From an uncultured archaeon (GTDB lineage: Archaea; Hadarchaeota; Hadarchaeia; Hadarchaeales; WYZ-LMO6), in NCBI GenBank assembly GCA_938074535.1, contig CALJER010000003.1, positions 1-64,000 of the forward strand: a stretch of 64,000 bases of DNA. Reading direction: 5' to 3'. A model generated the notes under the pieces. The model was not told the origin of the DNA and searched no databases. It worked only from the letters and a program-made list of their open reading frames with translations. Position numbers and translations under genes: made by a program. Shown here piece after piece: positions 9,348 to 36,958 of the stretch; the first letter of the stretch is position 1, and every line of letters begins with the position of its first letter.

Positions 9348-9766
9348 GGGGGGTCTCCACCCTCATCGGGACCGTCTTCCTCCTTGGTCTTACCCTTCTC
9401 GTTTTCGGGGTCTACGTCTTGGGCGTGGTGGGAAGGGGGGGCGCTGCGCCCGTTCGGCCCCTCCAGGCGGCGGTGAGGGTGGAGAGCGAGGAAGGGATGC
9501 TGGTGGTGAGGCACGTGGTGGGGGAAACCGTGCCGAAGGCCTTCAAGCTGTACAACGGGGCGGTCACCTGGCTGAACCTGGTGGTGAAGCTGAACGGGGA
9601 GAACCTGAGCGTGACCGGGGGGGCAAGGGTGGGTGCCCTCACCACGGGGATGGTGGACTTCGGCCCGGGGAGCAGGCTGGAGCTTCCGGTGAGCGTGGGG
9701 AGGGGAAGCACCGTCACGGTGGTTTACGTCCCCGCGGGACAGATCCTCGGCGAGAAGGAGTTCTGA
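9344..9766 (+). CDS. Archaeal type IV pilin-like protein
   Basis: 140 residues from the GTG at 9344, which overlaps the preceding stop (GTGA); upstream in-frame starts would run inside the previous gene. The leader is minimal (MRGVSTLIG), followed at once by the hydrophobic helix. The head carries the family block NGAVTWLNLVVKLNG and the ending VTVVYVPAGQIL. It is probably made with the previous pilin in fixed ratio. The head shares the repeated pilin fold but little other sequence, so a distinct role in the fibre is likely. Confidence 0.8.
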   Translation: MRGVSTLIGTVFLLGLTLLVFGVYVLGVVGRGGAAPVRPLQAAVRVESEEGMLVVRHVVGETVPKAFKLYNGAVTWLNLVVKLNGENLSVTGGARVGALTTGMVDFGPGSRLELPVSVGRGSTVTVVYVPAGQILGEKEF

Positions 9767-9901
9767 TTCTTCGGGCGGGGATGGACCGGAGCTGGCGAAG
9801 GGGCTGGGAGAAGGAGTTTGGGATCATCTCCCCTGCCCTTCCATCCGCGGAGGACGGCGGCCCCCCAGCCGCCGTTTGTGTGCTGGGGCTGACTGGGAGA
9901 A

Positions 9902-9920
9902 GTAAAAAAGGAAAAAATGT
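9902..9920 (-). terminator. Oligo-T terminator after the 9930-10406 pilin
   Basis: On the minus strand, two T6 runs separated by CC follow about 10-30 bases after the stop. Oligo-T runs are the usual archaeal termination signal. Confidence 0.6.
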
Positions 9921-9929
9921 GGAGGCAGC

Positions 9930-10406
9930 TCAGTACGTTACCTCTACCGACACGAGGGTTTGGTTCTTGGGCACCCACTTAAGCGACACCGTGTCACCTA
10001 TCTTCAAGCCTGTGTCGTATTTTACTCTTATCAGGTCCCCCACCACCATCGATTTGGATCCACTAATTGTGCTGCCAGGATAGATTCTAGTTCCTTCCGA
10101 AATGAACTCCACTAAGTTGTCCCCCGCAATCGATGCGATTACCCCGTTTATCCTGAGTTCCAAGTTCTTCCACTTGAGCGTGCCAGCCGCATTCTCAATC
10201 ACGTCGGGCGCCCTCTCCCCATAGACGTGCTTGATGGTGATCATCTTCCTTCCGCTCTCTATGTTCTCCAGGGAAAGCTGTCCGCTGAAGGGTGTGGCCG
10301 GCTGGGGGGCTGAGGCGAGTGAAAGCGCCAGAATGGCTGCGACGGCGAACACTATGGCTATCAGCACGATGGTCGCTATCATGGGTGAAACTCCTCTGCT
10401 GTCCAT
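9930..10406 (-). CDS. Archaeal type IV pilin, candidate major subunit
   Basis: 158 residues. The signal MDSRGVSPMIATIVLI is the most canonical in the cluster and the hydrophobic helix is Ala-rich to residue ~30. The head has LKWKNLELRING at ~78 and ends VSLKWVPKNQTL. It is a single-gene unit with its own strong ribosome site (AAAGGAGGTGA), TATA box and T-rich terminator. Its bases are visibly less GC-rich than those of neighbouring pilin genes, with more codons ending in A or T. A short, well-equipped monocistronic gene is what one expects of the abundant structural pilin, with the others as minor subunits. Recent acquisition would also explain the composition. Confidence 0.85.
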   Translation of the reverse strand: MDSRGVSPMIATIVLIAIVFAVAAILALSLASAPQPATPFSGQLSLENIESGRKMITIKHVYGERAPDVIENAAGTLKWKNLELRINGVIASIAGDNLVEFISEGTRIYPGSTISGSKSMVVGDLIRVKYDTGLKIGDTVSLKWVPKNQTLVSVEVTY

Positions 10407-10410
10407 TTCT

Positions 10411-10458
10411 TCACCTCCTTTTTTCTGAGGAATACTCGGGAGGGAGGCTTAAAAAGGT
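10411..10458 (-). promoter_or_regulatory. TATA box and strong ribosome site for the pilin
   Basis: On the minus strand a TATA-like CTTTTTAAG sits near 10449-10458, and AAAGGAGGTGA lies directly before the ATG at 10406. The ribosome site matches the 16S 3' end (GATCACCTCCT) almost fully and is the strongest seen in the pilin region. Confidence 0.6.
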
Positions 10459-10549
10459 TTGGGAGAACTGCTCAGGGAAGCACGGGAGGGTACCACACGG
10501 GGATGGGTGCATCCTCATCCTTTAACTCCCCTGGAGGGAAGTTAGGGAG

Positions 10550-12331
10550 ATGGGGCCCTGCAGGGGAGTCTCGGTGATGGTGAGCGTGGTGCTCATCCTC
10601 CTGGTGCTCATCCTGGCCGGCTCCGCCCTCCTGGTCCTCTACGGCCGCTCGGCCACGAGGAGTTCGGAGGGCAGGCTGCTCAGCTCCCTCCAGACGGAGT
10701 TCCTGGACCTCCAGTCCTCCCTCTGGAGCCTGAAGGGGGGGGAGGAGGTGCGGGCGAACCTCAGGCTGAGCGCCGAGGAGCCCCTCCTCTCCGCCTGGAA
10801 GGGGAGGGCCGGGAGTCTACGCCTGGTTCCTTCCGGTGCTCTGTACATGAGGAGGATTGCCATCACCAATCCCAAGAGCTACCCCCTTTACTATTTCCCC
10901 GTAAAGATAGAGCTCAACACCTCCAACTTCGACTTCAGCAGGGTGAGGAAGGACGGGGGGGATATAAGGTTCTACAGGGGCGAGGTTCCCCTGAGGTACT
11001 ACGTGGAGAGATGGGACTATCCCAACAGCGCCGTGATATGGGTGAACGTGCCCTACCTTCCTCCGCGCCCTGGGACCGAAAACGTGGAGATGTACTACGG
11101 GATGGTGGATGTGGAGAGCACCAGCGACCCCCGCGTCCTCTGGCTGATCATGGAGGACATGAGCGCTCCTCCCTCGGGAACCCTGAAGAGGGTCGCCACC
11201 GGCTGGTATGCGAGAACCGCCCTTCCGGAGTACGTGGGGGGGAGAGGCTATGTGAGACTCACTGCTAACAGGAAGTGGCAGAACGGGCAGCTAGAGTACC
11301 AGCTCGGGTACCAGCTCAACCCGGTGGAGGGCTTCCTGGCGAGGTTCGAGTTCTGGGCGGGGCTCACCACCACCTCCCTGCCGGGTAGTGAGGGTGCCGA
11401 CGCCACCTGGCTGTATGCCTACTGTACCTCCACCCCTCAAGAGGAGCTCTCAGCTGCGGGAGGCTATCACTTCGTCTTCGACGAGTACGACGATCAGCTC
11501 CAGCTCTTCTGGAACGGTTCCTCTCTAACCGCCGTGGGGAGGACCGACATAGACAACATGAGCTGGCACTCCGTAGAGATAAGGCACTGGAGGGAGGCCA
11601 CGGGGGAGAACATCCAAATCTGGTACGACGGGTCCCTGGTGCTCTCCTACCTGGACTCGATTAGGAACAAGACCGGGACCCTCTTCGGCTGGGGGGCCAG
11701 GACGGGGGAGAACACCAACGAGCACAGGATCAGGAACCTGTACGTTCGGAAGTACACCAACCCCGAGCCCCAGGCCTGGGTGGGTGCGGAGGAGAGGGTC
11801 TCCGGGGGGCCCTTCTTGGGCATGGGGGGCATGGGCTTCGGTTCCCTTGAGGTGGAGGCCAGGGGCTGGTTCACCCCCGCCACCACCTTCATCCTGGAGG
11901 GGGGGGCGGTGCTGGTGGAGGATGCGGGGGGGTGCCGCATGCTCTCCCCTCCCCACCTCCTCGTGGTGGGAGGGGAGAACACCCTCACCGTGACCCATGT
12001 TCTGGTGGGAGGACCCTCCCTCAGCCTCTCCTGCCTGGGGGGGAAGAAGCTCAGGTTGAGGTGCACCGGCGCCTGGTACAGGGAGAGGCCTTTGGAAGGT
12101 CCCAACAGGGAGAACGTGGTGCTGGACCTGAGCACCAGGGTGAGGCCGGGGCACAGGGGGGCCTGGCAGAGGTACCTGGAGGGGCTGAGGGACGAGCTGA
12201 ACTCCAGGGGGCTGAACGCCACCCTCTCGGGACTGACGCTCGCCGTGCTGGGGAAGAACACGTCCGCCGGTGTCAAGGATCTCTACTACTACGAGAGAGT
12301 GGTGGAGGTGGAGGTTGAAGCCCTCTCTTAG
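10550..12331 (+). CDS. Pilin-like protein with DUF2341 and lectin-like domains
   Basis: 593 residues. The N-terminus GPCRGVSVMVSVVLIL is a pilin-type signal. After a ~70-residue helical stalk, residues ~100-190 match the DUF2341 pattern (MRRIAITNPKSYPLYYFPVK, then IRFYRGEVPLRYYVE and ENVEMYYG). Residues ~195-405 look like a concanavalin/LamG-type beta-sandwich (FVFDEYDDQLQLFW, IQIWYDGSLVLSY). The C-terminal ~170 residues recur in the next two proteins and end in a KDLYYYERV motif. DUF2341 plus lectin modules are known from archaeal surface proteins and usually suggest binding of glycans; ligand unknown. It opens a four-gene operon with overlapping frames. Confidence 0.8.
   Translation: MGPCRGVSVMVSVVLILLVLILAGSALLVLYGRSATRSSEGRLLSSLQTEFLDLQSSLWSLKGGEEVRANLRLSAEEPLLSAWKGRAGSLRLVPSGALYMRRIAITNPKSYPLYYFPVKIELNTSNFDFSRVRKDGGDIRFYRGEVPLRYYVERWDYPNSAVIWVNVPYLPPRPGTENVEMYYGMVDVESTSDPRVLWLIMEDMSAPPSGTLKRVATGWYARTALPEYVGGRGYVRLTANRKWQNGQLEYQLGYQLNPVEGFLARFEFWAGLTTTSLPGSEGADATWLYAYCTSTPQEELSAAGGYHFVFDEYDDQLQLFWNGSSLTAVGRTDIDNMSWHSVEIRHWREATGENIQIWYDGSLVLSYLDSIRNKTGTLFGWGARTGENTNEHRIRNLYVRKYTNPEPQAWVGAEERVSGGPFLGMGGMGFGSLEVEARGWFTPATTFILEGGAVLVEDAGGCRMLSPPHLLVVGGENTLTVTHVLVGGPSLSLSCLGGKKLRLRCTGAWYRERPLEGPNRENVVLDLSTRVRPGHRGAWQRYLEGLRDELNSRGLNATLSGLTLAVLGKNTSAGVKDLYYYERVVEVEVEALS
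12184..12236 (+). repeat. 53-bp identical repeat, copy 1
   Basis: This stretch is identical to 13762-13814. Both lie at the same place near the 3' end of paralogous pilin genes whose surrounding sequence is far more divergent, which points to gene conversion or a recent partial duplication. Confidence 0.9.
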
Positions 12332-14621: not shown

Positions 14622-15377
14622 TCAGAGCTCGCTCTTGAGCACGATGGGCTCCCTCACCCTTCCCTGCCTTATCTCGTGCAGCCCCTCGCTGGCCAGCAGG
14701 GCGGCCCTCTCCGCCGTCCTCGCCACCCCCACCCCGGCCTTGAGCCCCACCCCCAGCCTCCTCTTGACCCGGGAGAACACGGAGGAGAGGCCCTCCAGGG
14801 CCAGACCGTTGGAGGGGACCATGAAGTTGTCCCCTCCCGTGTAGAACACCAGGCACTTCTTGGGGAGGAGGAGCTCCATCAGGGCCAGATGGGTGCGCTG
14901 GATCAGGAGATGGGTGTCGTAGATGGGCCTGGTGTCGGTGAGGCGCGTGGAGTGGTTGAGGTCCAGGTGGGCGATCTGCACCACCCCCTCCTCCAGGGAC
15001 CTCAGGGCCTCCCCGGCCACCTTCCCCCTCCTCCCCCCGGAGCGGCTGCTTCCCAGGCCCTGAAGGATCCTGCTGGCCCTGCGCTGGGCCTCGTAGGGGG
15101 TCCTCGCCACCCCCACCCCCATGCTGACCGTCACGGGGAACTTCCTGTTGATCCTCCTCGCTATCTCCACATGCTCCTGGAGGGAGATCCCGTTGGAGAG
15201 GGCAAGCAGGTTGTCCTGTCGGGTCTGGAAGACCAGTCCCTTCCTCTTCTTGAACTCCCTCTCGAGGGAGGAGAAGATCTCCGCCTGGAGCACCTGGAGC
15301 TCCGCCTCAGGGCGGGGCCCGGGGGTGACCGTCCAGGGACCGTAGTTGTCCAGCTGGATCAGGGTGAGCTGGAGCAT
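14622..15377 (-). CDS. gch3: GTP cyclohydrolase III
   Basis: 251 residues, the usual size of this archaeal enzyme. It hydrolyses GTP to the formylamino-pyrimidine nucleotide (FAPy) that feeds riboflavin and deazaflavin (F420) synthesis. The N-terminus LTLIQLDNYGPWT and the two related halves are diagnostic: GGDNFM-type and TRQDNLLA sites, and ArtPYEAQRRA/ARTAERAA helices that resemble nucleotide-cyclase folds. The start is the ATG at 15377. A TAAAAAG stretch lies just upstream on the minus strand. The gene is transcribed away from the tRNA-modification gene and stands alone. Presence implies a flavin/F420 route of the archaeal kind. Confidence 0.93.
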   Translation of the reverse strand: MLQLTLIQLDNYGPWTVTPGPRPEAELQVLQAEIFSSLEREFKKRKGLVFQTRQDNLLALSNGISLQEHVEIARRINRKFPVTVSMGVGVARTPYEAQRRASRILQGLGSSRSGGRRGKVAGEALRSLEEGVVQIAHLDLNHSTRLTDTRPIYDTHLLIQRTHLALMELLLPKKCLVFYTGGDNFMVPSNGLALEGLSSVFSRVKRRLGVGLKAGVGVARTAERAALLASEGLHEIRQGRVREPIVLKSEL

Positions 15378-15458
15378 CTTTTTACTCTTTCCCAGGCTTT
15401 TTTACCGTTTCGGAGCCCGGCAGGAAAGACCCTTTTTCCCTCCCGCCGAGTTCTCCTG

Positions 15459-16733
15459 ATGAGGGTCTACCTGGAAACGCACGGCTGCACGGCCAACAGG
15501 GGAGACGGGGAGATCCTGGCGGGCCTCCTCTCGGGGCGGGGGTGCTCGCTCGCGGGGAGACCGGAGGAGGCGGAGGTCCTCCTCCTGAACACCTGCGTGG
15601 TGAAGGGGGAAACCCGCAGGAGGATGCTGCGCAGGATGGCGGAGCTGGCCGGGACGGGCAAACCGCTGGTGGTGGGGGGCTGCCTTCCGCTGGTGGATCT
15701 CCCTTCGGTCCTGAAGGAAAAGCCGGCCGCCGTGATCTCCTGCCGCTCCCTTCCGCGCGTGGTGGAGGCGGTGGAGAGGGTGGGGAGGGGGGAGAGGGGC
15801 CTGCTCCTGCTCCACGGGGAGCCGGCCGAAAAGCCCGGCCTTCCCAAGCTGCGCTCCGGCCCCGTCAGCGCCATCGTGCAGATAGGGGAGGGGTGTCTCT
15901 CCTCCTGCACGTACTGCTCCGTGAGGCTGGCCAGGGGGAGGCTGAGGAGCTTCCCTCCCGAAAAGCTGGTGGAGGAGGTGAGGGAGGCCGTGGGAAGGGG
16001 GTACAGGGAGATCCTCCTCACCTCCCAGGACAACGCGGCCTACGGCAGGGACAGGGGCTGGGACCTCCCCTCCCTCCTCAGGAAGGTGGTGGGGGTGGAG
16101 GGAAGGTTCAGGGTGAGGGTGGGGATGATGAACCCTGAGAACGTTAGGCCCCTCCTCCCGGAGCTGCTCCAGGCCTACCGGGACGAGAAGGTCTACCGCT
16201 TCCTCCACCTCCCCCTCCAGTCGGGGGACGACAGGGTGCTGGGGGCGATGGGGAGGGGATACACGGTGGAGGAGTTCCTGGAGGTGGTGGGGGCCTTCAG
16301 GGCGGAGTTCCCCGAGCTCTGCCTGGTGACGGACGTGATCGCCGGCTTCCCCACGGAGACCGAGGAGGAGTTCGAGCGGACGGTGGAGGTCCTGACGGAG
16401 CTCAGGCCGGACAGGGTGAACCTCTCCCGCTTCTCCCCCATGCCGGGGACTCCCGCCTCCCGCCTTCCCCCCCTTCCGGGAAGGGAGGTGGCCAGGAGGT
16501 CCAGGATCCTCACCTCCCTCTGCCTCTCCCTCTCCCTGGAGGGGAACAGGAGGTACGTGGGGTGGGAGGGGGAGGCCCTGATCACGGAGGAGGGATGGAA
16601 GGGGGGGTGGGTGGCCAGGCTTCCCAACTACAAGCTGGCGGTCCTGTCTGAGGGCAGGCCGGGGGAGTTCGTGAGGGTGAGGGTGAGGGAGGCCAGGCCC
16701 ACCTATTTAGTGGCGGAGAGGGTGGAGGGATGA
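15459..16733 (+). CDS. tRNA-t6A37 methylthiotransferase (e-MtaB/CDKAL1 type)
   Basis: 424 residues from the ATG at 15459; the frame is open upstream but shows nothing. Domain order is MTTase N-terminal domain ([16 protein letters not shown] with the first cluster Cys; Cys residues also in LLNTCVVKG and VGGCLP), radical SAM core with Cys146, Cys150, Cys153 (GCLSSCTYC), and a C-terminal TRAM-like RNA-binding part. It puts a methylthio group on N6-threonylcarbamoyladenosine at position 37 of tRNAs reading ANN codons. It overlaps the ThiDN gene by ATGA, so the two share an operon although their pathways differ. Confidence 0.92.
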
Positions 16734-25814: not shown

Positions 25815-26516
25815 ATGAATAAAAAAATAGACGTTTCTGTGGTCGTTCCTACCTACAACGAGGCTAAAAACCTCCCCCTTCTGGTCAGGCGGCTGGCCAG
25901 AGCCTTCAGGGGCAGGAAGTGGGAAGTGGTGGTGGTGGATGATGGCTCCCCGGACGGGACGGGGAGGGTGGCGGAGGCCCTGGCAGGGAGGTATCCCCTC
26001 AGGCTGGTTCAGCGTGGTAGGAAGGGGGGTCTCGCCTCAGCGGTGGTGGAGGGGTGGCGGCACGCGAGGGGGGGGATCCTGGTGGTGATGGACGCCGACC
26101 TCCAGCACCCGCCCGAGCTGGCCCCTGAACTCGTCCGCTGTATAGAGGGGGGGGAGGAGATGGCCATAGCCTCCCGGTCCAGGTGGGAGGGGTGTAGAGG
26201 AGCAACGTCCAGGGTGGCGAGTGCCTTCGTCAGAGTTCTCCTGGTCCCAGGCGTCGAGGATCCACATGCCGGGTTTTTTGCCATCCGCAGGGAGATGCTT
26301 CAAGGGGTGAAGCTCAGGCCGAGGGGATACAAGATCCTGCTGGAGTGCCTGGCTAGGACGAAATGCCCCAGCATCGTGGAGGTTTCCTACTCCCCAGGGA
26401 AAAGGAGGTGGGGGAAGAGCAAGTGGGGCTGGAGGGAGGGGGTGGAGTATTTGGTTCAGTTTTTTTCCCTTCTGCGGAGCAGGAGACCCAGCTTTCGGTT
26501 AAAGATTTATGGGTGA
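25815..26516 (+). CDS. GT2 glycosyltransferase, dolichol-phosphate mannosyltransferase type
   Basis: 233 residues, soluble GT-A fold. Signature segments are VSVVVPTYNEAKNL at the N-terminus, VVVDDGSPDGT (~40), VMDADLQHPPE (DxD-type metal site, ~92) and a C-terminal SYSPGKRRWGKSK stretch. Enzymes of this group move a sugar from a nucleotide sugar to a polyprenyl phosphate on the inner membrane face. No transmembrane helix is attached, unlike some archaeal versions. It has its own TATA-like element (~25781) and a GAAGGGAG ribosome site. It opens the gene run that leads to UbiA and radical SAM enzymes, so its lipid-phosphate chemistry fits the setting. Confidence 0.88.
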   Translation: MNKKIDVSVVVPTYNEAKNLPLLVRRLARAFRGRKWEVVVVDDGSPDGTGRVAEALAGRYPLRLVQRGRKGGLASAVVEGWRHARGGILVVMDADLQHPPELAPELVRCIEGGEEMAIASRSRWEGCRGATSRVASAFVRVLLVPGVEDPHAGFFAIRREMLQGVKLRPRGYKILLECLARTKCPSIVEVSYSPGKRRWGKSKWGWREGVEYLVQFFSLLRSRRPSFRLKIYG

Positions 26517-26641
26517 GAGAAAGTTTGGGGGTGCAGAGGAATGGAGAGCCGGGGAGGCTTTGCGGGTGAGAGGGGGTTTGGAGAAAAATTTCCCCCCCCG
26601 CTCCACTTCTCTGGCTTTGCCGGTGGCCTGCAGGGAAGCGG

Positions 26642-27775
26642 ATGAAGCTCGCAGTGGTCCACAACGTGCTGAACGTGAGGGGCGGTGCCGAAAGGGTGAT
26701 GCTCGTCCTGGCCCGGGCCTTCAGGGCGGATTTTTTCACGCTCATTTACGAGCCGGAGAAGACCTTTGAGGAGGCCCGTGGGCTGAGGATCGTGGAGCTC
26801 ACCAAAGGGTTTAGGATGCCCGAGAACAGGGCTTTCCACCCCTGGATCTATCCCCTCTTCGACCTCTTTGGAATGATGAAATTCCTGACCCTGGACCTTC
26901 AGGATTACGATCTTACCATAACGAGCGGCAAACTCGGTCTTTTCGCCAGGGGGAAAAGGACGATTCACTACTCCCATACCCCCACGAGGGTTCTGTACGA
27001 TTTGAGGCCGAGGATTTTAGAGTATCTCGAGAGAACCCACGGCCTGAAGGCGAGGCTCCTGGCCGCCGCCTGGTTTGAGGTTTGGAGGAGGCTCGATCGC
27101 TGGGCTGCTCAGAGGCCGGATGTGATGGTCGCCAACTCGAAGTTGGTGCGGGAGAGGATCAAAAAGTACTACGGAAGGGATTCCGTTCTCATCTACCCCC
27201 CTGTGGAGATAAAGAAGTTCAGAGAGGGGGAAGCGGAGGATTATTTCCTGGCGGTTCAGAGGATCAGCCCGGAGAAAAGGATTGAGGTGCTCCTCGAGGT
27301 TTTCAGGAGGCTCCCCCAGCAAAAGCTGGTTTTGGTGGGCGATTACGTGGATGAGGACTATAAGTTCAGGATCTCTAGGATGATGGAGGGACTGGAGAAT
27401 GTGACTTGGTACAGGAATGTAAGCGACCGAGAACTGGCTGACCTTTATTCCCACTGCAGGGCGGTGCTTCAGACCTCAGAAAATGTGGATTTCGGCATGG
27501 TGCCCGTGGAGGCGATGGCAAGCGGAAAGCCGGTGATAGCGGTGGACGAGGGAGGGTTCAGGGAAACGGTGGTGGATGGAGAAACGGGCCTGCTCGTGGG
27601 AAAGCCCTATGTGGAGAACTTCGTTAAGGTTCTTGAGAGCTTCGATTCCTTCAAGTTCTCTCCCACCGCCTGCAGGAGGAGGGCGGAGAATTTCTCTGAG
27701 GAGAGGTTCATAGAGAGGATGAGGGCCCTCGTGAAAAGAGTGCTGGAAAATTCCTTCCCCGGAAGGGATTTATGA
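26642..27775 (+). CDS. GT4-type glycosyltransferase
   Basis: 377 residues, GT-B fold. N-terminal MKLAVVHNVLNVRGGAERV is the Gly-rich acceptor-side loop; the C-terminal domain has FLAVQRISPEKRIEVLLEVF, then YRNVSDRELADLYSHC and the donor-binding PVEAMASGKPVIAVDEGG with the E-x7-E pattern (E...E) typical of GT4. It transfers sugar from a nucleotide donor to a lipid-linked or similar acceptor. 125 bp of apparently non-coding sequence separates it from the GT2 gene. It overlaps the next UbiA gene by ATGA, which ties it to prenyl chemistry. Confidence 0.88.
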   Translation: MKLAVVHNVLNVRGGAERVMLVLARAFRADFFTLIYEPEKTFEEARGLRIVELTKGFRMPENRAFHPWIYPLFDLFGMMKFLTLDLQDYDLTITSGKLGLFARGKRTIHYSHTPTRVLYDLRPRILEYLERTHGLKARLLAAAWFEVWRRLDRWAAQRPDVMVANSKLVRERIKKYYGRDSVLIYPPVEIKKFREGEAEDYFLAVQRISPEKRIEVLLEVFRRLPQQKLVLVGDYVDEDYKFRISRMMEGLENVTWYRNVSDRELADLYSHCRAVLQTSENVDFGMVPVEAMASGKPVIAVDEGGFRETVVDGETGLLVGKPYVENFVKVLESFDSFKFSPTACRRRAENFSEERFIERMRALVKRVLENSFPGRDL

Positions 27776-28755
27776 GGGTAAGAAAGCTTCTAAAGCTGAG
27801 AGCCTGGAGCTTTGCCTTTTTCAAGATGATGATATATCCCTTGACCTTCCTCCTCTACTCAGCATGGGTGCAGGAGACCTTCTCCCTGGAGAAGCTTCGG
27901 GAGTTCCTCCTGCTCCTTCTCTCCATAGGGCTGTATTTTGTCGGGGGAACCCTTTTGAACGATTTCTGCGACAGGGAGTATGACCTGAGGACGGGGAAAG
28001 CTACCGGTGTGGAGAGCCTCTCGGGAGTGGAGGTGTTCCTCCTCCTCTCCACCTCCATCTCCTCCTGCCTGCTCCTTGCCTGGATCGCGGCAGGAGGGTG
28101 GGCGCTGGTTTTGGGAATGGGATTGATATTCACAGCTCTCTATTCCCACCCCACCCCTAGGTTAAAGGAAAGGGGCAGCTTCGGTCTTCTTTCCAACACC
28201 CTGGCCGAGCTCTCACCCTTTCTCCTCATCCAGCTCTCCCAGGGGCATTTTGCCCTGGCTTCAGCTTTTTTCCTCCTGTTCTACTTCTTCTTCAGCCTGG
28301 CGGGCATACTGAACCACCAGCTGGATGACTACGCGGCGGACAGAGAGGTGGGGGTGAAAACCTTCGTGGTTGGGGTAGGTTACGAAAGAAGCCTCTCCCT
28401 TCTAAAGGGACTCTCCGCCTTGACCGGCTTTTTGTTCTTTCTCCTCTCTTTCTTTCTCTTCGAGTTGCCGTACTTTTCCTTGTTCTTTTTTTCCCTGCTC
28501 CTTCTCTACTTCCTGGACCGGTTCGGCTTTCTCTCCCTTCACAGGGAGCCTTTGAGGTGGCCCCTCTATTTCGTGGACTTCATTTACTTGGGCATGTTCG
28601 GCCTCTTCCCCCTCTACCTCTCGTTTGTGCTGGCAGTTTCCTACCCCACCTATTCTCTTCTCTTGATCTTCACGCTCTTTTGCGAGTGTGTGTTTCTTCG
28701 CAAAGTCTCGGATAGGGTTTTAAATTGGGTTCGGAAACTTGAGGAGAGAAGCTAG
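27772..28755 (+). CDS. UbiA-family prenyltransferase
   Basis: 327 residues, about nine membrane helices. Both catalytic motifs are present: LLNDFCDREYDLRTGK near residue 63 (NDxxDxxxD) and LNHQLDDYAADREVG near residue 183 (DxxxDxxxG). It starts at an ATGA overlap with the GT4 gene, and the radical SAM gene begins right after its stop. The acceptor is unknown. Its sequence is distinct from the two UbiA proteins at 6405-8754, so it is not a recent copy. Compared with the first 25 kb, codons here use more A and T. Confidence 0.88.
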   Translation: MRVRKLLKLRAWSFAFFKMMIYPLTFLLYSAWVQETFSLEKLREFLLLLLSIGLYFVGGTLLNDFCDREYDLRTGKATGVESLSGVEVFLLLSTSISSCLLLAWIAAGGWALVLGMGLIFTALYSHPTPRLKERGSFGLLSNTLAELSPFLLIQLSQGHFALASAFFLLFYFFFSLAGILNHQLDDYAADREVGVKTFVVGVGYERSLSLLKGLSALTGFLFFLLSFFLFELPYFSLFFFSLLLLYFLDRFGFLSLHREPLRWPLYFVDFIYLGMFGLFPLYLSFVLAVSYPTYSLLLIFTLFCECVFLRKVSDRVLNWVRKLEERS

Positions 28756-30138
28756 ATGAAGACCCGGGTGATGTTCGTAAACGCTGTGGACCCGACTAGG
28801 GAAGGTGAAGTGTACCTCCCGCCGCTGGGGCTGGGCTATCTCGCGAGCTACCTGCGAAAGGAGTTCGGTTCAGACTCCATAAACTTCAAGATCGTCAATC
28901 GGAACGTGGAACGGGAGATAGAGAGCTTCAAACCCGATCTGGTGGGCATTACCTCCCAGACCCAGAACTACGCGAGAGCGGTAGAGTACGCTCAGACGGC
29001 CAAAAGGTACGAGATCCCGGTGGTTGTGGGGGGACCTCACATCTCCATGCTTCCTTCCTCGCTGGCGGACGCCATGGATGTGGGTGTAGTTGGGGAGGGG
29101 GAGAGAACGATGGCTGAACTTTTTGAGCTATTTGAGCGTGCAGGAGGATTTCCTGAAAGGGAGTTGGAGGGAGTTGATGGGATAGTCTTCAGAAATGGGT
29201 GCGGAAAGCTGGTCTTCACGAAGAAAAGAGCCCCCATCGAACCTTTGGATGAGATACCCCCGCCCGCCAGAGACCTGCTCGGAATAGGCCCATACACCTC
29301 AATGATTACCTCCAGGGGATGTCCATACAGGTGTGTCTACTGCGTCTCAACCCGTTTTTGGGGAGGGAGGGTCAGGTTCCATTCTGCCGAGTACGTGGTG
29401 GATGAAATCAGGGAGATGGTTGAGGAATATGGAGTGAAAACCATCAATATTTTTGACGACAATTTTCTCCTAGACAGGAAAAGGGTAAGAAAAATAATAA
29501 GACTGCTCGAAGAAGAAGATCTGCTTGAGAGGGTTTATTTTGAGTGTATGACAAGAGCTGATTTTGTTGACGAGGAAAGCGTCCTTCTGTTGAAGAGGAT
29601 GGGTGTTAGGTATGTTCAGCTAGGATTGGAGTCGGGAAACCCTGAGACTTTGAGGTATCTCAAGGGGGATGTTAAAGTGGAGAACAACAAAGCCGCTGTT
29701 GAATTTTTGAAAAGGGCAGGGATGGAGTGCGGAGCTTCTTTCATCATAGGCGCCCCGGAGGAAACCGAGGAAGACATCCTAGAAACTTTGAGGTTCGTAA
29801 AAGAGAGTCCGCTGGAGAGGTTTGGAGTCTATGTTTTGCTCCCCTATCCAGGTACTCCCTTGTGGGAGCTGGCAAAGGAAAGGAGACTGGTGGACGAAAA
29901 TATGGACTTTGGAGCCCTCAGCGCGGACTTCGCCAGGAACAAGCGGCCCGTGATTCTCTCAGAAAAAGTTTCGGAGAAAAGACTGCGCGAGCTATATTCG
30001 CAGTTTCAAAAAGAACTGAAGAAAAGGAGGGTGAAAGTGGTTGTTCTCAAGGGGCTGAAAAGTCCCGGAAGAATTCCACGATTTTTGGTGGAGAGGGCCT
30101 TGGCCCATCTGAGGTTTCGGACTTGCCTGATGGAATGA
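28756..30138 (+). CDS. B12-binding-domain radical SAM protein
   Basis: 460 residues. The cobalamin-type N-terminal domain has PPLGLGYLASYLRKE and VVVGGPHISMLP; the radical SAM core has Cys189, Cys193, Cys196 (GCPYRCVYC), followed by NIFDDNFLLDR, LGLESGNPE and FIIGAPEETEED. It has the same architecture as the protein at 399-1853. Members of this class act on unactivated carbons, including methylation of isoprenoids and hopanoids and ring formation in tetraether lipids. The coding sequence is clearly less GC-rich than the flanking genome, especially 29400-29700. It overlaps the next radical SAM gene by ATGA. Confidence 0.9.
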   Translation: MKTRVMFVNAVDPTREGEVYLPPLGLGYLASYLRKEFGSDSINFKIVNRNVEREIESFKPDLVGITSQTQNYARAVEYAQTAKRYEIPVVVGGPHISMLPSSLADAMDVGVVGEGERTMAELFELFERAGGFPERELEGVDGIVFRNGCGKLVFTKKRAPIEPLDEIPPPARDLLGIGPYTSMITSRGCPYRCVYCVSTRFWGGRVRFHSAEYVVDEIREMVEEYGVKTINIFDDNFLLDRKRVRKIIRLLEEEDLLERVYFECMTRADFVDEESVLLLKRMGVRYVQLGLESGNPETLRYLKGDVKVENNKAAVEFLKRAGMECGASFIIGAPEETEEDILETLRFVKESPLERFGVYVLLPYPGTPLWELAKERRLVDENMDFGALSADFARNKRPVILSEKVSEKRLRELYSQFQKELKKRRVKVVVLKGLKSPGRIPRFLVERALAHLRFRTCLME

Positions 30139-31175
30139 CTCGGAGGCTGAACAAGCCTAGTCTCAGGCCCAGGACCTGGACCAAGATTCTCCTCGACTTT
30201 CTGGAATACAAACTTGGAGATCCCAGGCTTTCCTTCTGTCCTTTTTTCGTGACATGGAAGTGTAATCTCAGATGTGGCTACTGCCCCTACGTAACGGATA
30301 CGGGGTCAGAACTCTTCAGTTACGCCCTGGGAGTTCGTGATGAAATGAGCACGGAAGAGGCAAAGTTGGCGGTGGATCAGCTGAGCGAGCTGGGTGTTGT
30401 GTGGATGTCTTTCACCGGGGGGGAGCCCCTCTTCAGGAGGGACCTGGAAGAAATAGTGTCCCACGCGAGAAAAAAGGGGATGATTACCATCCTGGATACC
30501 AACGCCGCTTTAGTAACACAAAGCAGGAGCAAATCGCTTGGTGAGGTTTTTGACAGGGTGGTTGTTTCGCTGGAAGGCCTGGAGGAAAAGAACGACGAGC
30601 TGAGGGGGAGGGGGAGCTTCAGAAGAACGATGAGGGGGGTGGAGCTCCTGAGGAAGAACACGGACTGCAGAATAGGGATCAACTTCGTCGTCAACAGGCT
30701 CAACTATCAGGAGGTAGAAGACACAGTGAATTTCTTGAGGGGAAAGGTGGACTCCATTACTTTCCAGCCCGTCCATCACGCAAGCGAGTTTCTTCTGGAG
30801 AAAGAGGCTGCGTACTGGGTCCAGGAAAAATTGCTGGAGCTGAAGCGGAAGTATCCTGCCTTCATCCTGAACACGGTTTCTCACCTCAAGCTTTTTGGAG
30901 ACCACCTAGCAGGCGGGAGGCGCTGGCTTGAGTGCGATGCTTTCGATCTCTATGTGGGATTGATGCCAAACGGTGATCTCTGCGGGTGTTACTATCCCTA
31001 TGTGGTCGGCAACGTGCTGGAGAGGCCCATGAGAGAACTTAGGGAGCTGGGCAGAAGGAGGAAAGAAGAGCTGCTTGCTAGGTGCGGGGGATGCACTCAT
31101 TCCAGCTTCTTCAACTTTTCCCAGGTTTTCAGACGTTCTTTTCCAGCCGGATTTTTGCACGCTTTGCTTTCTTAA
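30135..31175 (+). CDS. Radical SAM protein with C-terminal Cys-rich (SPASM-like) part
   Basis: 346 residues from the ATG at 30135 (ATGA overlap); the longer open frame reads through the previous gene. The core triad is Cys43, Cys47, Cys50 (KCNLRCGYC), then FTGGEPLF and SLEGLEEKND. The last ~80 residues have several Cys (WLECDAFDLYVGLMPNGDLC, then CYYPY, later ARCGGCTHS), consistent with an auxiliary Fe-S cluster domain as in SPASM or twitch enzymes. Substrate unknown. It sits between the B12-type radical SAM gene and the GGR-like flavoprotein, so it probably works on the same prenyl product or on a linked head group. Confidence 0.87.
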   Translation: MTRRLNKPSLRPRTWTKILLDFLEYKLGDPRLSFCPFFVTWKCNLRCGYCPYVTDTGSELFSYALGVRDEMSTEEAKLAVDQLSELGVVWMSFTGGEPLFRRDLEEIVSHARKKGMITILDTNAALVTQSRSKSLGEVFDRVVVSLEGLEEKNDELRGRGSFRRTMRGVELLRKNTDCRIGINFVVNRLNYQEVEDTVNFLRGKVDSITFQPVHHASEFLLEKEAAYWVQEKLLELKRKYPAFILNTVSHLKLFGDHLAGGRRWLECDAFDLYVGLMPNGDLCGCYYPYVVGNVLERPMRELRELGRRRKEELLARCGGCTHSSFFNFSQVFRRSFPAGFLHALLS

Positions 31176-31198
31176 GGGCCCTAGCAGAGAGGTAAAGA

Positions 31199-32146
31199 GT
31201 GGAAGAGGTTACCATCGTGGGTGCGGGCCCAGCTGGTCTTGCTTGCGCGAAGGGACTGGCGGACAGGGGAATTAAACCCTTGGTGCTCCACAAGGACTGG
31301 TTTGGGCAGAAGGCGTGCGGGGATCTGGTGGAGGAGGAGTGGTTCGGTCACCCCGTTTTCCCCTACTTGACTCCACGTGCTGTTGAAAGGAACTTCGACA
31401 GGTTTACCATCAATTTTTACGGGAGGAACTTCGCTCGGAAGGGGAGGTGGGTTTCGATCGACAGGGGGGAGTTTGAGCGGGCTCTGTGCGAGGAAGCAAA
31501 AAGGAGGGGGGCTAAGTTCAGGCTTGAGAGGGTTGCCAGGATCAGAAGGAAGGGAAAGACTTTCTTGATAAACGACAGAATAGAAACCAAATTCTTGGTG
31601 GGTGCTGACGGTGCGGACTCGGTGGTCAGAAGCTTTCTCGGGCAGGAAATAGAAAAGGCCTTTGCCATCAGAGGGTACGTGAAGGGGGATAGGGAGAGTC
31701 CCACCCTCTATGTGGACAGAGGGATAATCGAGGGGGGATATGCTTGGATTTTCCCCAAGAGGAAGCTGCTCAACGTGGGGGTCGTGGGTAGAAGAGTGGA
31801 GGAGGTGAAGAGGGGATGGAGAAAGTTCACCAGAGGAATGGAGGTGAGGGATGCAAAGGGATCGTTCGTCCCCTGCTCTCTTCCCTGTAAAACCGAGTTC
31901 GAAAACGCCATCTTGGTGGGGGACGCGGCGGGCCAGATAAACCCCCTCAGTTTCGCGGGGATCAACCTTTCCCTCCTCTGCGGAAGTCTGGCGGCCGAGG
32001 CGATTGCCTCTTCGAGGAGCTACGAGGGGCTGTGGAGGAAGGAGGTCTACCGGAGATTAAGGATTTTCCACCTGAAGGGGAAGATATTTTGGGGTTCTCT
32101 GATGAAGCAGAAGTGGGCCGGACATCTGCTGAGGTGGTTCTTCTGA
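31199..32146 (+). CDS. Geranylgeranyl reductase-like FAD oxidoreductase
   Basis: 315 residues from the GTG at 31199 behind a GAGAGG ribosome site. N-terminal dinucleotide motif VTIVGAGPAGLACA, substrate-loop Cys in KACGD, the family mark YAWIFPKRKLLNVG near residue 180, and the second FAD motif ILVGDAAGQINPLSFAG. It is shorter than typical archaeal geranylgeranyl reductases (about 390-400 residues), mainly at the C-terminus. It should use FAD to saturate isoprenoid double bonds or a similar C=C. The gene is flanked by radical SAM and Yip1-like genes, echoing the first genes of the window. Confidence 0.87.
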   Translation: MEEVTIVGAGPAGLACAKGLADRGIKPLVLHKDWFGQKACGDLVEEEWFGHPVFPYLTPRAVERNFDRFTINFYGRNFARKGRWVSIDRGEFERALCEEAKRRGAKFRLERVARIRRKGKTFLINDRIETKFLVGADGADSVVRSFLGQEIEKAFAIRGYVKGDRESPTLYVDRGIIEGGYAWIFPKRKLLNVGVVGRRVEEVKRGWRKFTRGMEVRDAKGSFVPCSLPCKTEFENAILVGDAAGQINPLSFAGINLSLLCGSLAAEAIASSRSYEGLWRKEVYRRLRIFHLKGKIFWGSLMKQKWAGHLLRWFF

Positions 32147-32157
32147 GTTCGAAGGGA

Positions 32158-32862
32158 GTGGCGAAAAACTGTTTTAGGGTGATGATCAAACCAGGAGAAG
32201 TGTTCGAACAGGTTAGGGCTGGAGTTCCCCTCCGCCTTTCACTACCCCTCCTGTTTTTCCTCAGGCAGCTTCACATCTACTCGCATGTTTGGCTGGTTCA
32301 TCGGGAATTTTATCTCGAGGAATACCGCCGTTTTTCCGACTTCCTGGTGGATAGATTTTCAGTCAACGGTGGGTTTGAGGTGATATGGATGTGGTTTTTT
32401 GGATGCATGATGATTTACCTGCTCGGAGTTTTCTTGGGAAAGAGGGTGAGCTACGAAAGGATAGAACACGGGTTCTTCTACATTTTCATCGCTTCCTTTT
32501 TTTTGCTCGCCCTCGACGTTCTTCACCTCTTCCTACCCCCCACTTATTTCCATGGTTACTGCATGCACGCAGCTTTGGCTGCACAGCTTTTCCTGATTCC
32601 GATATGGGTGAGTTTCATGGTGGAAAGGTTCCTGGGGGTGAGGAAGAGGTACACGGTCTTGCCAGCCAGCTTCTTCCCGATTTCGATCAAATACTTTTGG
32701 GGGGAAGTCTTCTCCCTTCCCATCGTTGTGGCAGGGCTGTGCGCGCTGATGTTTTTCTTCCTTCTCAAGCGGATGAACTCAAGAACGGTTTTTCTCTTCT
32801 CCTCCATAATTTGTGTTGCGGCCTTCCTAGCGGTGCCGGAGCTGAGGGGTTTCATAGATTGA
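32158..32862 (+). CDS. Yip1-like multi-spanning membrane protein, paralogue 3
   Basis: 234 residues from the GTG at 32158; GTG 32179 and ATG 32182 are alternatives. The N-terminal segment MIKPGEVFEQVRAGVPLRLS is typical of Yip1-family proteins and is the clearest clue for all three paralogues. Then follow five or six hydrophobic helices, with GKRVSYERIEHGFFY after the second, matching GKRVSYDR and GKKVSYRR in the others. No enzymatic residues are visible. It follows the GGR-like gene by 11 bases in the same operon. Confidence 0.65.
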   Translation: MAKNCFRVMIKPGEVFEQVRAGVPLRLSLPLLFFLRQLHIYSHVWLVHREFYLEEYRRFSDFLVDRFSVNGGFEVIWMWFFGCMMIYLLGVFLGKRVSYERIEHGFFYIFIASFFLLALDVLHLFLPPTYFHGYCMHAALAAQLFLIPIWVSFMVERFLGVRKRYTVLPASFFPISIKYFWGEVFSLPIVVAGLCALMFFFLLKRMNSRTVFLFSSIICVAAFLAVPELRGFID

Positions 32863-32899
32863 GACCAACTAAATTAAAATAAAGAGAAAGAATGAAAGT

Positions 32900-33856
32900 G
32901 TGGGGTGCGGAGGAATCTTCTGGCGTCTGGCTTTGAGATGGGGAGCAAGAAGGCCAGTAGCCAAGCTCCTTTTCAATCCTGTTCGGGAGCTGCAAAAATT
33001 CTTCAGGCCTAAACTCCATTGCATGGTGGTGCCCACTTTCAGGTGCAACTACTACGGCCTATGCAAGTACTGCCATGTTCCGGACCTGGGCCTCCCCGAG
33101 CTCTATCCCGGAGACTTCCGGTGGAAGAAACTGGTGGAGCGCCTGGAGGAGTTCCCTCCGTGCCTGCTGGACATCACAGGGGGTGAGCCCTTCATGGCGA
33201 AGGGCTTTCGGGAGTTCATCCAAAGTCTCCCTGGAAAGCACATGGTGGGGGTGAGCACTAACCTTTCCTTTGAAATAAGCGAGGTGGAGGAGCTCCTCCC
33301 CAGATTTTGCTGGATAACCGCCAGCTTTCACCCCTTTGCCGCAGACTTGAACGAGTTCCTGGAGAAGGTGAGGCGGGTTCGGGCCATCAACCCCAGGGTG
33401 AAGATAAACATGGTGGCACATCCGCAGGTGTTGCCGAAGCTGAGCTTCTACGTGAGAACCTTTGAGAAAAACGGACTTCTCACCAACGTCGATCCCTATC
33501 TGAGCTTATCTCCATACGCGGAGGAGGAGGAAAAACTTGTGAGAGGGCTCCTGATAAGCAAGCGGGTAACGACCCCTCCCTTCGTAGAGGAGCCCACGCT
33601 CTGCAATGCCGGTGTCAGGCATTTTGTCGTTTTGCCCAACGGGGACGTCTACACCTGTTGGAACGGAATGAACATAAGGCACTTTTTGGCAAGAGCAGAT
33701 GGAACGGATCCGCGGGAGGGGCCCTATTACCTAGGGAACATGGTCGGGGGAACTTTCAAGCCCAGGCAGGGGTGGATTAAGTGCGATTTCCCCTGCCCAC
33801 CACCCTGCGATTCCGACTTCACTGAAAGGAGGTCTTGGTCCACCCATCGGGGCTGA
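32900..33856 (+). CDS. Radical SAM protein with CX5CX2C cluster motif
   Basis: 318 residues from the GTG at 32900, about 20 bases after an AT-rich TATA-like stretch (32867-32883), so leaderless transcription is possible. The cluster-binding motif is Cys49-x5-Cys55-x2-Cys58 (CNYYGLCKYC), not the usual CX3CX2C. The remaining fold fits: DITGGEPFM, VGVSTNLS, NMVAHPQ. The C-terminus has Cys residues for an auxiliary cluster (PTLCNAGVRHFVVLPNGDVYTCW, KCDFPCPPPC). A CX5CX2C spacing is known for HmdB-type proteins, but I see no other link to that pathway. It ends the gene run that started at 25815. Confidence 0.82.
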   Translation: MGCGGIFWRLALRWGARRPVAKLLFNPVRELQKFFRPKLHCMVVPTFRCNYYGLCKYCHVPDLGLPELYPGDFRWKKLVERLEEFPPCLLDITGGEPFMAKGFREFIQSLPGKHMVGVSTNLSFEISEVEELLPRFCWITASFHPFAADLNEFLEKVRRVRAINPRVKINMVAHPQVLPKLSFYVRTFEKNGLLTNVDPYLSLSPYAEEEEKLVRGLLISKRVTTPPFVEEPTLCNAGVRHFVVLPNGDVYTCWNGMNIRHFLARADGTDPREGPYYLGNMVGGTFKPRQGWIKCDFPCPPPCDSDFTERRSWSTHRG

Positions 33857-33882
33857 ATCCAGCCCCCATACCTAAATGCTCA

Positions 33883-33892
33883 TATTTAAAGA
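33883..33892 (+). promoter_or_regulatory. TATA box for the adhesin gene
   Basis: TATTTAAAGA lies about 20-26 bases upstream of the GTG at 33909. This placement argues for a leaderless transcript from that GTG and against the upstream in-frame ATG at 33876, which would precede the TATA box. Confidence 0.5.
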
Positions 33893-33908
33893 AAATCAAC
33901 ATTTACGT

Positions 33909-36860
33909 GTGAAGGTTCCGCGGGGAGGGTGGGAAAAGGGGCTGAAGGGCGGGATGGCCCTGCTGCTCTGCCTCCTCTTCCTCCTCCCCCCGGCGTGCGC
34001 CCTCACCTTCACCGACACCACCAACGCCGACTTCGCGCAGGGGGTGCACGAGAACACGGAGAACGTGAGCGACGACCTCAGGCTCAGGACCAACTACCTG
34101 CAGGGCAGGTTCACCTCCAGGGCCTTCGACGCCCTGCAGACGCAGGTGTGGGGCACCCTCTCCTGGAACGCCACCCTTCCCTCCCTTGCGGTGAGCGTGG
34201 AGAACGACAACGTGGGGGCCGAGCCCACCACGCTGGCGGACGGGACCCCCAGGATAGGGAGGATCACGGGGGGTTCCGTCCTGAACACGAGGATCTCCGA
34301 CGGAGTCTACGAGAACATAGTGGAGGAGGCCGGCGCCCCCTACGGGGGAAGCGTGAACCTCATCCTCTTCTGGGACGGGGCCACCATACCCTCGGGCTGG
34401 ACCTGCATCTCCGATGACCCCGGGGAGCCCTTCTACTACAGGTTCCCCATGGGGGGGTCCTCCTACGGGAGCACGGGGGGTGCGGAAAACCATACCCACC
34501 CCACCACCTCCTCCTGCGGGGGACCCTCCGCCACCCTACAGAGGAACTCCGGGACCAACGTGACCACGGCGACCAGCACCCACACCCACACCCCCACCGT
34601 CACCGTGGCGACCGTAAGCCACCTCCCGCCTTACTACGACCTGAAGGTGATCAGGTACAACTCGGGAATCCCGTCCACCCTTCCCGCCGGTGTGATAGCC
34701 CTCTTCCCCTCCACCTCTGTTCCTTCCGGCTGGAGCCTTTACACGGCGGCGGACAACCGCTTCCTCAGGGGTGCTCCCTCGGCCGGGGGAACGGGGGGAG
34801 GCACCACCCACACCCACAGCGTGAGCGTGAGCACGGGCGGTCCCTCCCATACGGTGCAGCTGAGGACGGACCCCTGTGGTGCGTCCGTTGCCTACCCCAC
34901 CAGTACCCACACCCACTCCGGTTCTGGCACCAGCTCGGCGGCCGCCAACCTCCCCCCCTACCTCACGGTGGTCCTGGCCAAGGCCTCTGCCGACACCCCC
35001 ATCCCGGGCGGAATGATAGGGATGTTCGACGGCGTGCCCGGGGGGAACTGGTCCCTCCTCTCGGCCTTCAACGGAAGGTTCCTGCTGGAGAACCTAACCG
35101 CGGGATATGGGGCCACGGGGGGGACCTCCTCTCACACCCACTCCGATCTCAGCATCACCACGGGTACGGGCGCCACCTCCTCGGCCAACCTGGATGTGGG
35201 GACCGCCGTCACTTTCGCCAGCGGCACCCACACCCACACCGTCACGGTTTCCTTCCAGGAGAGTTCCCACCTCCCCCCCTACGTCACCGTCCTCTTCGCC
35301 CAGGCCACCTGCGGGCTCCGCTGGCAGCACAACATCGAGAACGTGGCGGCGGGCTACGCCAGCTACCAGCTGCGCGTGAAGGGCAGGACGAGCGGTGACT
35401 CCGAGACCGTGGGGGTCTACGTGTGGAAGAGCAGCGCCAGCTCCTGGGAGTACCTGGGGAACCTCACGGGGACCGAGGCAACCCTCACCAAGATCCTCTC
35501 CGGGGCCGAGCTCCCCTCCTACCTGAGCGGGACCAGCCTGCTGGTCAAGTACGAGTCGGCCGATGCCAGCGACCTAACCCCCACCGCCCTCCACGTGGAC
35601 CTCTGCATCCTGGAGGAGGGCCAGCTCTACAAGAGCTATGTGAAGTTCAGGGTGAGGGTGAGCGCGAACGGCTCCACCTGGAGCCAGGAGCTGGGCCCGG
35701 ACGGTACCCCCAACACCTACTTCACCTCCTCCCCCGCCAGCCTGGGGAACATCCCGGAGAACCGGTACATCCGCTACGTCGCGTACCTCTCCAGCGAGCA
35801 CTCCCAGCTCACCGGGGCCAACGGCCCGAAGGTGCACGACGTGACCATCACCTCCTTCACCCCAGGACAGGCCGAGGTTTTCACCCTGGGAGCTGAGAAC
35901 GTGGGCTGGGGGGGCGCCATCCTCACCGCCAGGCTCCTCTACGTGGATCCCTGGGCGGCGGTGAGGTTCCAGTACATGCCGGAAGGGGGGGTCTGGGAGA
36001 GCACCCCCTGGGAGGGCTGGGAGAAAAGCTGGTACTGGCGCCCCGTCTCCGGCCTGCAGGAGAACAAGACCTACTACTTCCAGGCGCAGGTGAAGTACGG
36101 CGGACAGATATACGGCGGCGGGATCAGGACCTTCAGAACCCTTCCCAGCAAACCCTATGCCGTCACCCTGAGGGCCACCGAGGTGGACAACTCCTCCGCC
36201 GTGCTCAACGCCAGAATATACTACGGCAGCTACGACAACGTGAGCATAAGGTTCTGGTATCAGCCCGAGGGAGGGAGCTGGTCGGCCACCACGTCCGTCC
36301 AGGGCTACAGGGGCCCCACCTACAGCACCAGGATCACGGGCCTGACCGCAAACAAGCTTTACTCCTTCAGGGCTGAGATCACCTACGGTACCACCTCCGA
36401 GAACGCCAACGTGGAGACCTTCACCACCTTTACTTCCAAGTCCACGGGCATGGCCTACGACGGGACCCTCGGGTTCGGCTCCTCCCCCCCCGGCTGGCAC
36501 GGGGTGAGGATGACCCCGCCCTCCGGCACCAAGGGTCTGAAGCTGGAGCTCCTCACCTCCTCCCCCCTCCCCGCCCACTACTCCCTGCGGGTGGTGAGGG
36601 ACAACGGGGAGCTGCTCTACGCCGGCCACATCCTCTCCGACAACGGGAAGAGCAAGGTGGTGAGCGTGAGGCTCTGGAAGAGCACGGCCGGGGAGAGCGT
36701 GTACGTGGAGCTCTACGATCCCTACGGCTTCGCCTACAGGACGAGGGGCACCAAGCCCTCCTTGGGGGATGCCGCGTACTCCTACCTGGACCGCACCGGA
36801 AAGAACCTCAGGTACTACGACAGGGCCTGCGGCGTGAACGTGCTGGAGAGCTACGCCTGA
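33909..36860 (+). CDS. Large secreted adhesin with three tail-collar-like domains
   Basis: 983 residues. A Sec-type signal peptide ends at PPACA (about residue 32). Residues ~150-460 hold three repeats of a ~100-130-residue domain: a PSGW or GNWSLL start, a Gly-rich loop, two His-x-His pairs (195/197 and 225/227; 301/303 and 334/336; 409/411 and 441/443), and an LPPY strand at the end. This is the pattern of phage tail-collar and short-tail-fibre receptor domains, where HxH pairs hold a metal ion in a trimer. Then come a beta-sandwich region (~470-650), two fibronectin type III-like repeats (~660-850) and a C-terminal ~120-residue domain. No membrane anchor is seen, so retention must be indirect. 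Base composition returns to GC-rich. Confidence 0.75.
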   Translation: MKVPRGGWEKGLKGGMALLLCLLFLLPPACALTFTDTTNADFAQGVHENTENVSDDLRLRTNYLQGRFTSRAFDALQTQVWGTLSWNATLPSLAVSVENDNVGAEPTTLADGTPRIGRITGGSVLNTRISDGVYENIVEEAGAPYGGSVNLILFWDGATIPSGWTCISDDPGEPFYYRFPMGGSSYGSTGGAENHTHPTTSSCGGPSATLQRNSGTNVTTATSTHTHTPTVTVATVSHLPPYYDLKVIRYNSGIPSTLPAGVIALFPSTSVPSGWSLYTAADNRFLRGAPSAGGTGGGTTHTHSVSVSTGGPSHTVQLRTDPCGASVAYPTSTHTHSGSGTSSAAANLPPYLTVVLAKASADTPIPGGMIGMFDGVPGGNWSLLSAFNGRFLLENLTAGYGATGGTSSHTHSDLSITTGTGATSSANLDVGTAVTFASGTHTHTVTVSFQESSHLPPYVTVLFAQATCGLRWQHNIENVAAGYASYQLRVKGRTSGDSETVGVYVWKSSASSWEYLGNLTGTEATLTKILSGAELPSYLSGTSLLVKYESADASDLTPTALHVDLCILEEGQLYKSYVKFRVRVSANGSTWSQELGPDGTPNTYFTSSPASLGNIPENRYIRYVAYLSSEHSQLTGANGPKVHDVTITSFTPGQAEVFTLGAENVGWGGAILTARLLYVDPWAAVRFQYMPEGGVWESTPWEGWEKSWYWRPVSGLQENKTYYFQAQVKYGGQIYGGGIRTFRTLPSKPYAVTLRATEVDNSSAVLNARIYYGSYDNVSIRFWYQPEGGSWSATTSVQGYRGPTYSTRITGLTANKLYSFRAEITYGTTSENANVETFTTFTSKSTGMAYDGTLGFGSSPPGWHGVRMTPPSGTKGLKLELLTSSPLPAHYSLRVVRDNGELLYAGHILSDNGKSKVVSVRLWKSTAGESVYVELYDPYGFAYRTRGTKPSLGDAAYSYLDRTGKNLRYYDRACGVNVLESYA

Positions 36861-36958
36861 TGGGGCCAGGGCCGGGAACTCCGCCGGCTCGGGGCCGGAT
36901 TCGAACCCGGGTCACGGGATCCACAGTCCCGGATGCTGACCGCTGCACCACCCTGGCC
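36861..36958 (-). tRNA. tRNA-His (anticodon GUG) with a T-arm intron
   Basis: Read on the minus strand: G(-1) at 36958, acceptor GCCAGGG, D-arm, anticodon stem CGGGA/TCCCG with loop CTGTGGA (GTG), T-stem CCGGG and loop TTCGAAT. Then 22 extra bases (36898-36877) precede CCCGG, CCCTGGC, discriminator C73 and CCA. With the 22 bases removed all stems pair perfectly and the His identity elements G(-1) and C73 are both present. The 3' CCA ends one base past the stop of the adhesin gene. Confidence 0.9.
36877..36898 (-). other. 22-nt tRNA intron between positions 60 and 61
   Basis: The insert lies at the 3' side of the T-loop, with a two-base (CC) ambiguity at the junctions. It contains CCGGC (36898-36894) and GCCGG (36888-36884), which pair perfectly and leave a 5-base loop. 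The position is non-canonical; most archaeal tRNA introns lie at 37/38. Confidence 0.82.

Follow-up and report, generated by a model that had tools for sequence, protein, structure and literature searches.

We propose that residues 146–469 of a secreted archaeal surface protein probably form a complete collar trimer in a single chain, with two metal sites of six histidines each, inserted as a block in the surface protein and serving there as a probable attachment tip. The gene occupies positions 33909–36860 of the window, by which we mean the whole 64,000-nucleotide stretch of DNA that was analysed. The pseudo-trimeric fold, the bound metal, the role in attachment and the direction of transfer from virus to cell are what we infer from the analyses described below. 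The open-access literature that was searched contained no account of a collar triplet in a single chain.

Fibre tips are textbook homotrimers. In tips of the T4 type (gp12, gp37 and the C-terminal domain of gp10), three identical chains wind about a common threefold axis. Metal ions sit on this axis, bound by the HxH pairs that each chain contributes, with six histidines to each site.

Layout and setting of the surface protein

The protein is encoded by an open reading frame on the forward strand, which runs from a GTG start at 33909 to a stop codon at 36858–36860, with an ATG at 33876 as an alternative start. A secreted multi-domain protein had been predicted here, and this is what the open frame of 983 residues and the Sec-like signal peptide read from its sequence indicate. 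An orthologue from a second species of this genus (G001) is 82% identical and retains the three tandem domains. The features are listed below in window coordinates.

33909..36860, +, gene for the secreted surface protein of 983 residues (open reading frame; 82%-identical orthologue in G001)
33909..33998, +, signal peptide, residues ~1–30 (identified by eye from a basic start, a hydrophobic core and an ACA/SA end; orthologues alike)
33999..34343, +, N-terminal domain, residues 31–145 (also present in numerous surface proteins from this order)
34344..34667, +, collar-like domain D1, residues 146–253 (motifs, viral-collar HMM, position comparison)
34491..34499, +, first HxH of D1, H195 and H197 (sequence)
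34581..34589, +, second HxH of D1, H225 and H227 (sequence)
34674..34991, +, collar-like domain D2, residues 256–361 (motifs, viral-collar HMM, D2 model, position comparison)
34809..34817, +, first HxH of D2, H301 and H303 (sequence)
34908..34916, +, second HxH of D2, H334 and H336 (sequence)
34995..35315, +, collar-like domain D3, residues 363–469 (motifs, viral-collar HMM, position comparison)
35133..35141, +, first HxH of D3, H409 and H411 (sequence)
35229..35237, +, second HxH of D3, H441 and H443 (sequence)
35316..35888, +, two more surface-protein domains, residues 470–569 and 570–660 (common to paralogues; probably β-sandwiches)
35892..36443, +, two copies of an Fn3-like repeat, residues 662–745 and 747–845 (both match one stretch of L035)
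36444..36857, +, C-terminal domain, residues 846–983 (conserved in G001, G002 and G003)

Each of the three tandem domains is about 105 residues long, with PSGW or NW at the start, LPPY at the end and, in between, an R-F motif, a GG and two HxH pairs. The original prediction had described this pattern correctly, with HxH pairs at 195–227, 301–336 and 409–443; the starts it gave are found as PSGW, PSGW and GGNWSLL, and there are three LPPY ends. Its Fn3-like repeats are upheld as repeats, since residues 662–745 and 747–841 both align with one and the same part of a paralogue and so are copies of one repeat, but the Pfam fn3 models have no match in the window protein.

The neighbouring genes are metabolic according to Pfam, in agreement with the earlier view that the protein is not joined to phage genes: UbiA, radical SAM proteins and a FAD/geranylgeranyl-reductase-like protein are encoded upstream, and acetyl-CoA synthetase downstream. 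With a readable signal peptide, metabolic neighbours and domains common to cellular surface proteins, the protein has the marks of a cellular, non-virion surface protein. We note that a low-GC island lies just upstream of the gene (window positions 26000–34000, 52–57% GC against 62–69% around it), which carries the UbiA, B12-radical SAM, radical SAM and FAD/geranylgeranyl-reductase-like genes and is matched by a shorter stretch in G001. A tRNA-His gene (gtg, 36885–36958, minus strand) is found 25 bp past the surface-protein gene, and is a possible integration site.

Comparison with paralogues shows how the three domains are placed in the protein. In four paralogues, one of them from the same genome (L036), the domains from residue 470 onwards follow directly on the N-terminal domain, and the match that ends near residue 139 and the one that begins near residue 470 are 6 residues apart, versus about 330 here. 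In L027, L033 and L046, the slot is filled by other sequence. On the basis of these alignments, we conclude that the triplet is a block inserted in a variable slot of a pre-existing type of surface protein. Domains in common with the window protein are also present in giant surface-type open reading frames of 3170, 5638 and 7944 residues in contig 1 of G001 (L029–L032, 72–142 kb).

Kinship to viral collar modules

Scans of the window protein with Pfam, PHROG and NCBIfam gave nothing at threshold, and Pfam PF07484 (Phage Tail Collar) did not match at its gathering score, either in the whole protein or in single domains. A profile built from six domains of two species had two matches only in the PDB, both of them phage fibres: 9qgo (E 0.015) and the T4 gp37 tip 2xgf (E 0.13). 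With a profile of 19 triplet-only domains, the phage tail fibre 9qgo was matched at E 3e-4, in an alignment that covers the PSGW/RF collar start and does not include the histidine pairs. Comparison by hhalign with viral single-collar tail proteins gave 98.8% (E 1e-16), with the whole domain covered in order; among these viral proteins are some with a match to PF21939 Gp10_C (E 9e-22) or, below its cut-off, to PF07484 Collar.

An HMM was built from 24 viral single-collar proteins chosen by a DNA pattern corresponding to HTH..HTH..PPY; it has three matches in the window protein (full E 2e-22), where the best of 500 shuffles reached 0.15 and the other open reading frames of the window gave nothing comparable. 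The match leans on HxH and PPY and is gone once these motifs are masked. In tblastn searches of phage records, the triplets returned stray pieces only, one of which led to the virus vir515 described below. Viral scans with the domains of the window protein, of G274 and G549 and of other triplets found no relatives except the single-collar tail gene L047.

Structures were predicted using AF2. The triplet run without an alignment had a pLDDT of 31 and gave no usable model, and D2 alone, with a 29-row alignment, was modelled at a mean pLDDT of 69.6, which is medium confidence. A Foldseek search of the D2 model against the PDB and BFVD found nothing significant. In VIA-align, the rows at Z ≥ 2 for this medium-confidence model consist only of tail-fibre or gp10-type proteins (Z 2.1–3.0): an injection-system fibre, the T4 gp10 C-terminal domain, the phage Pa223 fibre, a Bizionia prophage fibre tip (6ov6) and T4 gp37. 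The injection-system fibre Pvc13 (8on5) is at the top of the list with Z 3.0. We consider the kinship of the domains to collar tips to be well supported by the sequence profiles and weakly by structure; the proposed likeness to phage fibre-tip modules is supported by the match to 9qgo and the hhalign result.

Three domains as one unit

Profile searches identified further triplets in G001, G274, G432, G549, G586 and G826/G892, and one more was found by DNA pattern in the viral contig L130. The nine triplet proteins belong to seven families, with identities down to about 30%, and each of them has three domains, no more and no fewer, with six HxH pairs (54 out of 54), although a search with triplet profiles is biased towards triplets and shared ancestry by itself could hold the number at three. 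The two HxH pairs are 29–38 residues apart within a domain and 73–82 apart between domains, and the middle residue of HxH is free (T, S, A, N, E, I or R). A scan of viral contigs by DNA pattern, which is blind to copy number, found 65 loci with a matching open reading frame; those that were read contain one collar each, none contains two or four, and one (L130) contains three.

The triplets occur in both viral and cellular settings, and their carriers span at least two archaeal phyla, namely that of the window (28 genomes sampled) and that of G274, to which the other carriers belong. G274, G549 and G586 are archaeal proviruses, in which the triplets are located in the tail modules. The G274 triplet is in an open reading frame of 1144 residues with a match to baseplate phrog_1160 and with head and sheath genes nearby, and that of G549 is in a protein of 743 residues with the same phrog_1160 match and head genes nearby; the G586 protein, of 326 residues, is a triplet and nothing else, close to sheath and baseplate genes. 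L130 has a portal gene near its triplet. The G432 protein (L074 1–7620, minus strand) is a secreted MtrC/MtrF-like multiheme protein of 2540 residues (PF22113, E 9e-36) with the triplet at its start. The G826 and G892 proteins are 496 and 493 residues long, and that of G826 is secreted and adjoins a camelysin (Peptidase_M73)-like gene.

Two other features of the viral loci were observed. The G586 provirus contains a diversity-generating retroelement (L082 13488–14872; reverse transcriptase phrog_1423, E 1e-128) with an 80-bp repeat pair, in which all 17 mismatches fall at an A of the template copy; the variable copy is in an open reading frame of 461 residues (14781–16163), outside the collar triplet. 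In L130, the frame of a terminase-like open reading frame (9696–10805, minus strand) begins with an intein-like end (..VHNC), which suggests an intein in the terminase of this contig.

The three positions of the triplet are distinguishable. Over the seven families, the true order D1–D2–D3 ranks first of 46,656 assignments, a result that holds with close pairs removed. The seven D1 domains form one clade (support 98/96), and the D2 and D3 domains are nearly, but incompletely, sorted. Because the true order ranks best and the D1 domains form a clade, the comparison indicates a single tripling event, followed by a separate history for each position: as far as sequence can tell, the triplet arose once. 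Separate histories are expected if each domain has its own place in one assembly.

The tandem relatives always have three domains, the positions have their own identities, there are six HxH pairs, and the same fused unit occurs in archaeal viruses; we therefore propose that one chain would make up the whole trimer. The three tandem domains would replace the three subunits, so that the three first HxH pairs would come together in one six-histidine metal site and the three second pairs in another. Since the first and last strands of the collar are together, a short linker could join neighbouring domains round the axis. In T4 gp37, the collar is composed of two segments, one at the beginning and one at the end of the domain (811–860 and 1016–1026) (PMC12724248), and HxH-type sites of gp37 are described as holding iron (cited in PMC11705849).

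The HxH pairs are the most conserved feature of the triplets, and the sequence between the pairs is variable. The first of these observations would suit a single-chain collar trimer that is not an adhesin and functions as a structural knob stapled by metal or as an element that holds metal, as would the presence of the triplet at the head of a multiheme cytochrome in one host protein. The second resembles the situation in receptor-binding loops, and to our knowledge all relatives with a tested role are receptor-binding tips. We consider a purely structural or metal-holding role to be unlikely. In the archaeal genus, the inserted block would most likely form a rigid, metal-stapled tip for attachment, and its most likely use on the surface would be the binding of cells, glycans or minerals.

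An ordinary homotrimer, in which three chains with three collar domains each would form three full tips strung along one fibre, appears distinctly unlikely to us. The solved relatives 2xgf, 9qgo, 6ov6 and 9nxk are PDB entries that each contain three chains of one sequence, and the single-domain viral relatives are presumably homotrimers too. Against this, the copy number is one or three in every case, the three positions have distinct conserved identities, and end-to-end stacking is disfavoured by the short linkers and by the location of both ends of the collar at one end of the domain. Of the trimeric tip originally predicted, the kinship to collar modules is retained, but the ordinary trimer of this chain is not, as the constant number of three and the identities of D1, D2 and D3 point to a trimer within one chain.

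Origin of the triplet and comparison with known systems

On balance, we favour a history in which archaeal tailed viruses joined the three chains of a viral tip trimer into a single one, which then passed into large adhesin-like proteins, an extracellular multiheme cytochrome and a secreted protein encoded next to a camelysin-like gene; in these it would be a metal-stapled, asymmetric, single-chain binding tip. In the archaeal tailed viruses, the triplet would either open a baseplate protein or stand alone as a separate gene, and the fusion of three different collar units in one chain would be a natural step beyond a heterotrimer encoded by three genes. The earlier suggestion that a cell has taken over viral modules for attachment is consistent with the viral relatives, the secreted non-phage setting and the insertion as a block; transfer from virus to cell is the likely direction, although the tree is unrooted.

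On this unrooted tree, the cellular triplets are on one side and the viral ones on the other, with modest support (74/91), and such a tree would also fit the reverse transfer, in which archaeal viruses acquired the triplet from surface proteins. However, single-collar domains are abundant in viral contigs and the three-gene collar clusters are viral, and we regard the reverse direction as very unlikely. Convergence of Thr/Ser/His-rich β repeats that merely resemble collar tips, for which the effect of masking HxH and PPY, the lack of a Pfam match and the weak structural scores could be cited, is highly improbable and was set aside on the match of 9qgo over the PSGW/RF collar part and the in-order hhalign match of the whole domain, and the relatives with the triplet are virion genes.

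If the proposed origin is correct, a trimer can turn into a single asymmetric chain in which the three faces can evolve apart, giving a scaffold that does not need the assembly of three chains, and the window protein documents that archaeal cells have captured a receptor-binding device from viruses. The triplet at the head of the multiheme cytochrome suggests recognition of a partner or of a mineral, and a possible link between viral tips and extracellular electron transfer.

The window triplet is similar to the T4 gp37 tip (2xgf), gp12, the gp10 C-terminal domain and the families PF07484 and PF21939 in its PSGW/R-F start, its HxH pairs and its closing PPY strand. The T4-type tips have one domain per chain and three chains, whereas the window protein has three non-identical domains in one chain of a secreted cellular protein. 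The Photorhabdus injection-system fibre Pvc13 (8on5) bears a phage collar domain (PMC12923769); it is likewise a collar tip reused outside phage, but as a homotrimer on an injection particle. The triplets of G274, G549, G586 and L130 are the same fused unit with six HxH pairs, those of the proviruses being about 30–36% identical; they are virion genes (baseplate or own gene, with phrog_1160 neighbours), whereas the window protein is a surface protein.

The closest parallels to the use of three different units are encoded by separate genes. In the virophage DSLV2, three adjacent collar genes encode three different chains that form one heterotrimer, as shown by co-purification and native gels (PMC12724248). 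The ANME virus vir515 (BK063672; L077 4347–6450) has three adjacent, overlapping, paralogous single-collar tail genes. In both, as in the window triplet, three different collar units make, or are likely to make, one tip; in DSLV2 and vir515 these are three separate genes and chains, whereas in the window triplet they are fused in one chain, and the fused unit also occurs outside virions.
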